From contig CAKQZO010000047.1 of NCBI GenBank assembly GCA_934293835.1, positions 1 to 11,021 on the forward strand: a stretch of DNA of 11,021 nucleotides. The letters run 5' to 3'. Position 1 is the stretch's first letter; each line of letters opens with the position of its first letter. The translations under genes and the position numbers were made by a program. Shown here one piece after another: positions 4,644 to 7,067 of the stretch. This stretch comes from an uncultured Lacticaseibacillus sp. GTDB taxonomy: Bacteria > Bacillota > Bacilli > Lactobacillales > Lactobacillaceae. The notes under the pieces were generated by a model. That model was given only the letters and a program-made list of their open reading frames with translations. It had not been told where the DNA came from and searched no databases.

Positions 4644-5951
4644 ATGCAAGCACACGAATATGAAGAAATCGGCGAGACGCTTTATACCGAGACACTGGCC
4701 AACGGGTTGCGCGTCTTGGTCGTGCCCAAGCCGGCTTATCATGAGACTTACGCGCTGTTTGCGACCAATTACGGCAGTATCGACACGCGTTACGTGCCTC
4801 AAGGCGGCACCGAGTTCGTCCAAGATCCGGCCGGGATCGCCCATTTTTTGGAGCACAAGATGTTTGAGAAGGCCGACCATGATGCGTTCGACCTGTTCGG
4901 GGCCAATGGCGCCAACGCGAATGCTTACACCAGCACGACGCGCACGGCGTATCTCTTCTCCGCCAGCACCAAAGTTGCCGAAAACCTCGACACGCTGTTA
5001 GACTTTGTTCAAGATCCTTATTTCACGCCGCAGACGGTGAACAAGGAAAAAGGCATCATTGGCCAAGAAATTCAGATGTACCAAGACGATCCTAGCTGGC
5101 GCCTGTACTTGGGGCTGTTAGGGGCGTTGTATCCACACCATCCGGCCTCTGTCGATGTGACAGGAAGCATCGCGTCGATTGATACGATCACGGCCGAGAT
5201 GTTGTACCGGGCACACGCGCGTTTTTATCATCCCAGCAACATGACGCTGACGGTGGTTGGGGACTGCGATCCGCAAGCGGTGATCGCCCAAGTCGTGGCG
5301 AATCAAGCGGCTAAGACGTTCCCCTCAGCCACGCCGATCAAGCGCGGCGTGGTCGGCGACTATGATGTCAAAGCCAAATTAAGCCACCGCGAGTTGTCCT
5401 TGCCGGTCATGCGGCCTAAGGCGATGGTCGGGATTAAGGGGCTGACGGCAGTGGATGAATCCGTTGCAGGCGTGCGCTTCCAGATTGCCGCCAGAGTGCT
5501 GCTTGAGGCGCTGTTCGGGGACTCGTCACCACTGTATCAGCAGTGGTACGATGATGGCTTGGTCGATGATTCGTTTGACTATAGCTATGAGGCCCAGCGC
5601 ACCTTCAATTTCGTCTCGTTAGGCGGGGATGTCGAAGAGCCTGAGGCGTTCATTGCGGCGGTGCAAGCGGTGATTGCCCGCGGTGCAGACCAACCGCTGC
5701 TCACGCAGGAACGCTTCGCCCGCCTGCAACACGCGGCCTTGGGTAAGTATTACATGTCGCTCAATTCGCTGTCTGGTATCGCCAACGCCTTGAGCGCCCA
5801 AAGCTTCGGTGCGGTCAACTTGTTCGATTATGGTCACTTGTTGCAGTCGCTGACGCTGGCAGACGTGCGCCAAGCCGCCGAAGTCTTATTTGTCCCAGAA
5901 GCGGTCGCCAGCGTGATCATTAGAAACCAGAGCGAAGCAAAGCGTATTTAG
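4644..5951 (+). CDS. ymfH: M16-family zinc metallopeptidase (YmfH-like), presumed catalytic partner
   Basis: This 435-residue protein has the inverted zinc motif HFLEH at 67-71. E135 and E142 are spaced 7 apart in 'EKGIIGQEIQMYQDDPSW'; E142 is the likely third zinc ligand. The C-terminal half has the usual M16 features (SSPLYQQWYDDGLVDDSF at about 294-311). It probably degrades or trims peptides as a pair with the protein encoded just upstream; no signal peptide is visible, so it should be cytoplasmic. The ribosome binding site GAGGGGG (4631-4637) lies in the end of ymfF. The last residues, RNQSEAKRI, are encoded by the first copy of the repeat array (from 5922), so this end of the protein was probably replaced or extended when the array arose. 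The TAG stop (5949-5951) lies within the first hairpin. The catalytic core is intact. Confidence 0.9.
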   Translation: MQAHEYEEIGETLYTETLANGLRVLVVPKPAYHETYALFATNYGSIDTRYVPQGGTEFVQDPAGIAHFLEHKMFEKADHDAFDLFGANGANANAYTSTTRTAYLFSASTKVAENLDTLLDFVQDPYFTPQTVNKEKGIIGQEIQMYQDDPSWRLYLGLLGALYPHHPASVDVTGSIASIDTITAEMLYRAHARFYHPSNMTLTVVGDCDPQAVIAQVVANQAAKTFPSATPIKRGVVGDYDVKAKLSHRELSLPVMRPKAMVGIKGLTAVDESVAGVRFQIAARVLLEALFGDSSPLYQQWYDDGLVDDSFDYSYEAQRTFNFVSLGGDVEEPEAFIAAVQAVIARGADQPLLTQERFARLQHAALGKYYMSLNSLSGIANALSAQSFGAVNLFDYGHLLQSLTLADVRQAAEVLFVPEAVASVIIRNQSEAKRI

Positions 5952-6044
5952 CTGGGAGTCTAAGCCAGGACACCGCAGAGGTGCGAAGCATCGCAAAGGC
6001 GTCCTGACATAGACAGCCCAGCGTTGCTTTGCGTAGCTCGACGA
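5922..6044 (+). repeat. Repeat unit 1 (hairpin overlapping the ymfH 3' end)
   Basis: The following arms pair in nested order. GCAAAGC (5937-5943) pairs with GCTTTGC (6026-6032). GCTGGG (5951-5956) pairs with CCCAGC (6017-6022). GTCTA (5958-5962) pairs with TAGAC (6010-6014). CAGGAC (5966-5971) pairs with GTCCTG (6001-6006). TGCGA (5982-5986) pairs with TCGCA (5991-5995) around the loop AGCA. The ymfH stop codon lies between the first two stems. The unit is 123 bp, slightly shorter than the others, and lacks the GCTCGACGA part on its left side, where ymfH coding sequence begins. Confidence 0.85.
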
Positions 6045-6169
6045 AGAAACTAGAGCGAAGCGGGACGGGCTTAGCGGTGTGTCTAAGGCAGCTTGGGCGG
6101 GAGCCGGCAAAGCCGGTGGACGTCCGAGATGACTTAGACGCAACCGCGTTGTCCCGCGCAGCTCGACGA
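6045..6169 (+). repeat. Repeat unit 2 (hairpin)
   Basis: The following arms pair in nested order. GCGGGAC (6060-6066) pairs exactly with GTCCCGC (6151-6157). GCGGTGTGTCTAAG (6074-6087) pairs with 6133-6147 with one bulged A (6142) and one G-T pair. CTTGGGC (6092-6098) pairs with GTCCGAG (6122-6128) using two G-T pairs. GCCGGC (6103-6108) pairs with GCCGGT (6112-6117) around an AAA loop. This is the most complete fold of the three units. Confidence 0.85.
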
Positions 6170-6295
6170 AGAAACCAGAGCGAAGCGAGACCGCACTTAG
6201 GGCGTAGCGTAACGGATGCGAACAACGGAGCGAATACGTTTGCGGAGTTGATCGAACCGTTAGGCCTAGCCCGTTGGTCCCGCTTGGCTCGACGA
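6170..6295 (+). repeat. Repeat unit 3 (hairpin)
   Basis: The following arms pair in nested order. AAGCGAGACC (6183-6192) pairs with GGTCCCGCTT (6276-6285) with one A-C mismatch. GGGC (6200-6203) pairs with GCCC (6269-6272) and TAG (6205-6207) with CTA (6266-6268). TAACGG (6210-6215) pairs with CCGTTA (6257-6262). GCGAAC (6218-6223) pairs with GTTTGC (6238-6243), with one G-T pair. After the unit, the core stops at CCAG (6304) and unrelated sequence with the ymfI ribosome binding site follows. Confidence 0.82.
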
Positions 6296-6341
6296 AGAAA
6301 CCAGCACTCAGCATACAGCTCTACAGTCAGGAGGTAACCGC

Positions 6342-7067
6342 ATGCAGGCAGCTTTAATTATCGGGGCATCAGGGGACATCGGCGGCGCGATTGCGCGGCG
6401 GTTGGCAGCGACAGGCTGGTCGTTGTATCTGCACTATAATGCCCATTTCGAACCAGTGGCCGAGTTGATGGCCGAGCTGCATCAGGCTTATCCCCAGCAG
6501 GATTTCATCCCGGTGCAATATGACTTGTTGGACGCGACGCATCTTGAGGAACTTTGTGCGCAATTGTTTAGTCTCGATGCGGTGGTTTTTGCGGCGGGGC
6601 AGACGTATTATCACTTGTTCAAAGAGACCACGGTACCTGAATTGACTGCCTTGATGCGGGTGCACCTGCTGACCCCGATGGCCTTGTTGACGCGCTTGCA
6701 AGATAAGCTCGCCGTCAGTCATCACGGCCGCGTCGTGTTTATCGGTTCGGTGTATGGGGGGGCCGGTTCGGCGATGGAAGTCGCGTATTCGACGGTCAAA
6801 GGGGGCCAATCGGCATTCGTGCACGCGTATGCCAAAGAGGTCGCCAGCCTTGGAATCACGGTGAATGTGGTCGCTCCCGGCGCTGTGGCGACGAAGATGA
6901 ATCAGATGTTTGATCAAGAGACCCTTCAGGCCGTGCAAGCAGAGATTCCCGCGGCGCGTTTTGCTCAGCCGCAAGATATCAGCTACTATGTGGCGACATT
7001 GTTACAACCAGAAGCGGCCTACCTGACGGGGCAGACGTTGTACGTCACAGGCGGATGGCTACAATGA
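6342..7067 (+). CDS. ymfI: Short-chain dehydrogenase/reductase (YmfI/FabG-like)
   Basis: This 241-residue protein has the classical short-chain dehydrogenase layout. The nucleotide-binding glycine motif GASGDIG is at 8-14, FAAG at 83-86 stands where NNAG is usual, and the catalytic S136, Y149 and K153 are present (in 'VFIGSVYGG' and 'AYSTVKGG'). The post-catalytic segment is 'NVVAPGAVATKM', and the family ending 'LTGQTLYVTGGWLQ' is present. The enzyme should reduce or oxidise a carbonyl/alcohol with NAD(P)(H); the substrate cannot be told, and fatty-acid synthesis genes are not next to it. Position in the ymf cluster supports the YmfI name. ATG 6342 is preceded by AGGAGG (6329-6334) 7 nt away. 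The 390-bp gap from ymfH is filled by the repeat array; no clear promoter is visible there, so expression probably depends on readthrough from ftsK-ymfH. Confidence 0.88.
   Translation: MQAALIIGASGDIGGAIARRLAATGWSLYLHYNAHFEPVAELMAELHQAYPQQDFIPVQYDLLDATHLEELCAQLFSLDAVVFAAGQTYYHLFKETTVPELTALMRVHLLTPMALLTRLQDKLAVSHHGRVVFIGSVYGGAGSAMEVAYSTVKGGQSAFVHAYAKEVASLGITVNVVAPGAVATKMNQMFDQETLQAVQAEIPAARFAQPQDISYYVATLLQPEAAYLTGQTLYVTGGWLQ

Follow-up and report, generated by a model that had tools for sequence, protein, structure and literature searches.

The window analysed here is the whole 11,021-nucleotide (nt) stretch of DNA from an uncultured Lacticaseibacillus sp. (contig CAKQZO010000047.1), in which three head-to-tail repeat units occupy positions 5929-6293, between the genes ymfH and ymfI. 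These units almost certainly belong to a family of interspersed, high-copy hairpin repeats found in Lacticaseibacillus and some other Lactobacillaceae. The best overall explanation, which is held to be probable, is a non-autonomous mobile hairpin similar to repetitive extragenic palindromes (REPs) and miniature inverted-repeat transposable elements (MITEs), with secondary effects on neighbouring mRNA. The family resembles known hairpin repeats in kind, and no prior description was met in the searches.

The repeats are most visible at the unit junctions. A 17-nt core, AGAAACYAGAGCGAAGC, is present at 5922, 6045 and 6170, in each case with no mismatches to the Y pattern, and GCTCGACGA precedes the copies at 6045 and 6170 as well as a partial copy at 6296, where approximately 9 nt match. 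Core-to-core spacing is 123, 125 and 126 nt. Among 200 dinucleotide shuffles the mean number of core matches was 0.06 and three matches occurred in none. A preliminary description of the window had reported both this recurring core of about 17 bp and its near-fixed period of 123-126 bp, and both are confirmed. It had also found the linkers to be more alike than the unit interiors, which is borne out by an interior identity of only 57-59% among the three units; the best matches of these interiors outside the window are 67%, 79% and 66%. Because the interiors differ, Tandem Repeats Finder called no array of ~125 nt at the site. The linker as first described (GCTCGACGA plus core) is made up of two hairpin feet, the 3′ foot of the preceding unit and the 5′ foot of the following one, with a short spacer between them; the linkers are conserved because they hold these feet.

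Each unit folds on the + strand into one long hairpin of ~115 nt, with z scores of -7.2 (for the stretch 5928-6049), -7.8 and -5.6, and no shuffle folded as well. Unit 1 (5929-6042, 114 nt, foot GAGC/GCTC) has a folding energy of -56.4 kcal/mol and scores 92.7 bits with R1, a covariance model built from 31 units. Unit 2 (6052-6167, 116 nt) folds at -71.9 kcal/mol and scores 116.6 bits on the + strand against 26.6 on the - strand, and unit 3 (6177-6293, 117 nt) folds at -56.6 kcal/mol with the lowest score of the three, 53.7 bits. Spacers occupy 6043-6051 and 6168-6176, and a trailing spacer with the array end occupies 6294-6304, where AGAAACCAG at 6296-6304 repeats 5922-5930. A full unit of the family measures about 112-120 nt. 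GAGC at the 5′ foot is paired with GCTC at the 3′ foot; next come an internal loop, a stem of 8-9 bp, a second internal loop with a conserved TTAG, and additional stems.

The interiors keep their pairing while their sequence varies widely. The model derives from 35 units, of which two were dropped before alignment A1 (a false match and a hybrid) and a further two of the remaining 33 as near-duplicates. In the MAFFT alignment of the 31 units, standard pairs fill 93.7% of pair cells, compared with 72.7% after shuffling and 30-45% when the alignment is slid; 29 of the 38 pairs carry changes on both sides, and the covariation score is 0.574 versus 0.184. The foot itself changes by compensation between subfamilies, appearing as GAGC/GCTC, GGGC/GCCC, GCGC/GCGC or GCGT/ACGC. 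The preliminary description was right that the interiors are unlike, but this applies to sequence and not to structure. Its account of the array and linkers has stood, as has its dismissal of a simple tandem duplication and of a CRISPR; it missed the paired interiors and the presence of one hairpin per unit.

An additional outer pair joins the base two before the unit to the fourth base after the foot. This was assessed in 288 units with an intact 4-bp foot, taken from 329 in four genomes, with window unit 1 added. The two bases are complementary in 155 inner units out of 163, where shuffles average 79.4, and in 120 first units out of 125, where shuffles average 52.2 and reach 71 at most. First units have no preceding unit, and therefore either the element carries its own ends or it picks sites that fit. 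A foot code of four combinations (GACG+CC, GACT+AC, GTTT+AG and GTTA+TG) accounts for 103 of the 125 first units. The base-pair rule is referred to as part of the hairpin foot, since empty sites are ambiguous as to the last two flank bases being native target. In the 161 of 170 units that were parsed, the outer, middle and apical stems are combined in several ways, and the stem modules seem to recombine.

All copy counts come from related genomes rather than from the source genome of the window. The junction pattern, with up to three mismatches, occurs 10 times in the UW_DM_LACCAS3_1 genome (G001) and three times in G010 and is absent from the other 28 of 30 Lacticaseibacillus genomes; a control pattern gave 0. 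R1 finds matches in 28 of the same 30, with none in G019 and G025, a single match each in G011, G018 and G024, and at least 124 in the richest genome. Across the family, 66 of 397 Lactobacillaceae genomes are positive, with up to at least nine matches per genome among those listed, and at a stricter limit 11 of 395 genomes of the order, nine of them already among the family-level positives; the E-values behind these counts are rough. Unselected 400-kb stretches hold 54 copies in G016 and 21 in G023, while the G001 and G010 pieces were mostly chosen for holding matches. Neighbouring units are spaced 119-127 nt apart in 89 of 97 cases, arrays reach at most seven units, and 26 of 77 consist of a single unit; 21 of 195 rows had been removed because a better-scoring match, mostly one on the other strand, overlapped them. 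Six of the 77 arrays were left out at piece edges, and five of the remaining 71 lie inside a frame of a simple open reading frame (ORF) caller. Such arrays thus occupy many intergenic gaps in relatives, where the preliminary description had proposed to look, and what was found is neither a core confined to this site nor a set of interiors that are decayed copies of one another. Extrapolation from 54 copies per 400 kb gives ~380 units in a 2.8-Mb genome, and the family may make up a large unrecognised share of the intergenic space of lactobacilli.

A described Rfam family was rejected as an identity for the repeats, in agreement with the first impression that no family could be recognised: Rfam gave 0 matches at E≤1 in the window and, at gathering scores in four array-bearing loci, a single T-box away from the arrays. 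The literature search met no title or abstract describing the family, subscription journals being largely outside its scope. The window array had no match in the phage or plasmid collections. A block of G023 units, by contrast, gave matches in 17 plasmid records and in none from phages, and in the 15 records shown no listed gene lies under the match. The plasmids NZ_CP125316.1, NZ_CP035153.1 and NZ_CP044239.1 (L207-L209), from L. rhamnosus, Pediococcus acidilactici and L. paracasei, carry such G023-like sequence, the likeness being one of sequence to G023 units. Judged from these matches, the family may travel on mobile replicons.

Turnover is seen between relatives. The window array is absent in all seven assessable relatives, where ymfH and ymfI range from overlapping by a few bases to lying 21 nt apart, compared with 390 nt in the window; the gap is short in close relatives, a point that the preliminary description had proposed to check. 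L069, in which the ymfH frame breaks early, was left out of this comparison, and R1 finds no unit there. Eight of 21 G001 arrays with both flanks in one G010 piece have no unit in G010, and in the reverse direction two of 17 G010 arrays, one of them doubtful, have none in G001. The pieces in these two counts were partly chosen for matches; L232:13397 is a wrong pairing, and a G001 unit adjoins L231:2842, which entered the count as an empty site. With second genomes taken irrespective of matches, the sites occupied were 0 of 4 in G010, 0 of 3 in G014, 0 of 3 in G009 and 2 of 3 in G022.

Sites occupied in both of two related species were compared 13 times; the L237:11593 comparison depends on a match of 29.7 bits, and in one case two G010 units were set against a single G001 array. 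The number of units differs in all 13, and only three share any unit with an interior identity of at least 0.85, while the aligned flanks are 79-92% identical. One stop-codon site is common to G016 (three units) and G022 (five units), and the units differ; R1 finds none in the matching G009 and G014 pieces. An equal or better match outside the own array exists for 98 of 146 units. Spacers are identical in 12 of 68 comparisons within G001 arrays versus 22 of 2633 between them, and in 2 of 6 versus 10 of 247 in G016. Local duplication may set the spacers and unit numbers, with the interiors coming from elsewhere.

Most arrays start next to a stop codon or the T-run of a terminator. Of 71 arrays, 55 are on the same strand as the gene upstream. 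At its 5′ end the array adjoins a terminator T-run in 14 of 31 G016, 2 of 45 G001 and 5 of 14 G023 arrays, a stop codon in 9, 32 and 2, and a ribosome-binding site on the antisense strand in 3, 3 and 5, with none of the three signals in 5, 8 and 2, respectively. Random non-coding points fall at a terminator in 2.4-2.9%, at a stop in 7-17% and at an antisense ribosome-binding site in 10-12%. Read on the other strand, the 3′ end shows none of the three signals in 27 of 31 G016, 32 of 45 G001 and 12 of 14 G023 arrays. A further unit start follows the array in 20 of 30 (G016), 6 of 44 (G001) and 6 of 14 (G023), and a unit end precedes it in 1 of 30, 2 of 44 and 0 of 14; the motif was matched with a mismatch allowed and without a random control, and some G001 and G023 matches look like chance. 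Stop codons within 12 nt before an array are TAA in 32 of 36 (G001), 15 of 18 (G010) and 5 of 7 (G016), compared with 206 of 391, 96 of 170 and 76 of 236 background ORFs. The best-scoring unit shows no positional trend in G016 and is the 5′-most in 17 of 29 G001 arrays of two to four units, where ~11 are expected.

The two strands of a unit do not fold equally well. Among full-length units, to which this test was limited, the more stable fold is that of the sense strand in all 52 of G016 and all 116 of G001 (168 of 168). G.T pairs outnumber A.C mismatches by 140 to 11 in alignment A1, 162 to 54 in G016 and 591 to 46 in G001. The advantage of the sense strand extends to all units of arrays that follow a terminator (24 in G016, 5 in G001, 9 in G023) and to all units of arrays opposite the start of the next gene (6, 7 and 7), with sense-antisense energy gaps about as large as in stop-adjacent arrays. 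This independence of the bias from the place of the array relative to genes suggests that local mRNA effects are secondary, and it speaks for a folded strand that is important to the element as such and not just to the local mRNA. In the window the reverse strand folds at -58.3 (5928-6049), -51.6 (6045-6174) and -51.6 kcal/mol (6170-6300).

From these data we infer that the element is mobile, that a folded strand is recognised and that insertion takes place at an anchored end. The element would be non-autonomous, with one specific folded strand (single-stranded DNA or RNA) being recognised, and would insert in a fixed orientation beside gene-end signals and its own copies; ectopic recombination would afterwards shuffle stem modules and interiors. 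In the source genome of the window, insertion would have been at the ymfH 3′ end, giving that gene its stop codon, and as a side effect the hairpins would protect, cut or insulate the ymfH-ymfI mRNA. Mobility with recognition of the folded strand is considered about evenly balanced between true and false. Tentative, and on the whole doubtful, is a joint reading of a shape-recognised one-strand hairpin whose units enter behind a termination signal or another unit, giving 5′-anchored, 3′-decaying arrays in which the content is replaced and the site persists, with the foot code guiding the reading of the cut site. No promoter- or terminator-like pattern occurs in 5700-6700, where shuffles expect just 0.4 and 1.0, and the window hairpins are therefore probably transcribed. 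The array is probably co-transcribed with ymfH and ymfI, and effects on mRNA stability, readthrough or processing are plausible.

Several observations weigh against a mobile hairpin recognised as a folded strand. Window unit 1 is an exception to the strand bias, its reverse strand being slightly the more stable (-58.3 versus -56.4 kcal/mol), and a strand bias could be inherited from ancestors under selection at the RNA level. Seven of the 45 G001 arrays have their 3′ end at a terminator read from the other strand, and the preference for TAA could reflect gene class rather than target. Same-array interiors in G016 are more alike than average (0.78 versus 0.68; in G001, 0.69 versus 0.67), and one G022 array reads A-B-A-B, indicating some local duplication. 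Target-site duplication is weak (2 of 31 in G016, p 0.18; 8 of 45 in G001, p 0.027). Y1_Tnp (PF01797), matched in 13 of the 30 genus genomes, has no match in the copy-rich G016, G014, G022, G003, G012 and G023, and RVT_1 (PF00078), matched in 11 of 30, has none in the copy-rich G016, G014 and G022. A Y1 transposase as general mobiliser and a reverse-transcriptase mobiliser or group II intron-derived element were rejected on these two results.

If the repeats were instead selected as a cis-acting RNA element of 3′-untranslated or intercistronic regions, they would stand behind the stop codon, block 3′-5′ exonucleases or be cut by RNase III and would set the ratio of upstream to downstream expression. 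The stop-adjacent array starts of G001, a sense fold rich in G.U, the lack of promoter- and terminator-like patterns in 5700-6700 and the many sites occupied in both G001 and G010 agree with such a role, and MITE repeats are described in the available part of PMC3733652 as often gene-adjacent, transcribed and acting on neighbours by folding. However, many G016 and G023 arrays stand behind terminators or opposite a gene start with an unchanged strand bias, sites are often empty where the second genome was not chosen for matches, and seven relatives have no array between ymfH and ymfI. A selected role of this kind is regarded as rather unlikely. Still less probable is a family of giant CGTC-tagged REPs mobilised by a RAYT/IS200 enzyme. 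A reverse-strand CGTC does lie beside the foot in 65 of 178 G001, 54 of 76 G010 and 33 of 54 G016 units, and the part of PMC3733652 available states that CGTC-tagged REPs, the tag often being altered to TGTC or CCTC, have no dedicated transposase. Against this, the units measure ~115 nt and not 20-40, the arrays run head-to-tail and are not head-head dimers, other units carry AGTC, CCTC, AAAC or TAAC with CGTC in 0 of 21 in G023, and Y1_Tnp is unmatched in the six copy-rich genomes named above. Because the length and transposase tests failed, the family was not filed under REPs.

Simple local tandem duplication followed by decay would account for the resemblance within G016 arrays, the A-B-A-B order in G022 and the array-specific spacers of G001. 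It is nevertheless very improbable, as the preliminary description had already held, since the window units are so little alike, the copies are dispersed and carry compensatory changes, and most units are matched as well or better outside their own array; it was rejected as sole origin. CRISPRs (clustered regularly interspaced short palindromic repeats) have identical repeats and unstructured spacers. Their early dismissal is upheld, and they were rejected as the units are ~115-nt hairpins with conserved pairing; CRISPR repeats are of 24-48 nt (PMC3733652, available part). An intrinsic terminator was rejected for want of a terminator-like site in 5700-6700. If recognition by shape is the true reading, a single-strand mobility enzyme remains to be found; if the mRNA reading is true, many operons contain an overlooked control of expression.

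Group IIC introns and integron attC hairpins provide precedents for recognition of a folded single strand or for insertion beside terminator hairpins. The present family differs in having no cassettes between units and no RVT_1 in three copy-rich genomes. With REPs and bacterial interspersed mosaic elements it shares numerous extragenic hairpin copies, mostly downstream of genes, and, in three of four genomes, a CGTC beside the foot in many units. In the available part of PMC3733652, REPs are given as 20-40 bp, GTAG- or CGTC-tagged, with head-tail dimers rare, and Firmicutes are not among the phyla named there; the present units are longer, head-to-tail and mostly free in sequence, with no Y1_Tnp in several carriers. 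The MITE-like repeats RUP, NEMIS, Bcr1, ERIC, YPAL and EFAR are similarly non-coding, folding and often gene-adjacent, at 70-300 bp (same part of PMC3733652). Unlike these, the present family shows no clear sequence-conserved terminal inverted repeats of 15-30 bp and no convincing target duplication, occurs in tandem arrays and conserves structure rather than sequence. The recurring unit ends comprise only the 4-bp foot and one outer pair, the whole unit being a hairpin, and the window flanks share 9 nt, which also form the spacer. Efa-1 of Enterococcus faecalis is likewise a stem-loop family of Lactobacillales with a predicted common structure, but is 163 nt in length, forms a pair of adjacent stem-loops and has 65 members listed (PMC2267715, available part). 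In the low-GC Firmicutes rows available from the stem-loop family surveys (PMC1590033, PMC2267715), one Lactobacillus, L. johnsonii, appears.

The upstream gene, ymfH (4644-5951, + strand), encodes an M16 peptidase (PF05193, PF00675), and its final codons consist of element sequence. Its TAG stop codon (5949-5951) is given by the TTAG loop of unit 1 at offset +23; stop offsets of +21 to +24 are also present in some other arrays. The conserved TTAG of the 5′ internal loop supplies a TAG in one frame, which ends host genes when the element inserts before their own stop. Downstream, ymfI (6342-7067, + strand; PF13561, PF00106) encodes a short-chain dehydrogenase and is preceded, past the array end, by AGGAGG at 6329-6334, which reads as its likely ribosome-binding site. 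The + strand frames of the window are topA, an ftsK-like gene, ymfF, ymfH, ymfI, rodZ, pgsA, cinA and rny; ymfF, ymfH, ymfI, rodZ and rny were checked with Pfam, and topA, the ftsK-like gene, pgsA and cinA are presumed identities from their translations. A 142-amino-acid antisense frame (5886-6314, - strand) spans the whole array and is probably a by-product of the hairpins. Compared through YmfH, the closest relatives found are Lactobacillus sp. UW_DM_LACCAS3_1 (77%), L. manihotivorans (74%) and L. porcinae (73%), which places the window in a Lacticaseibacillus-like genome.

Similar placements are seen in the his operon. In G001 (L171), arrays of three and four units at 11526-11891 and 14919-15401 split hisD-hisB and hisI-hisC, respectively. 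Like ymfH in the window, hisI has its end within the element, and both positions are free of units in the relative G010. The hisD-hisB gap of G023 (L198, 10631-10994) contains three units that run against the operon and start close to the hisB ribosome-binding site, as read from the other strand. Units or arrays of opposite orientation also lie close together at L232 4784-5044, L161 14506-15020 and L231 2842-3119, where they could form very large cruciforms.
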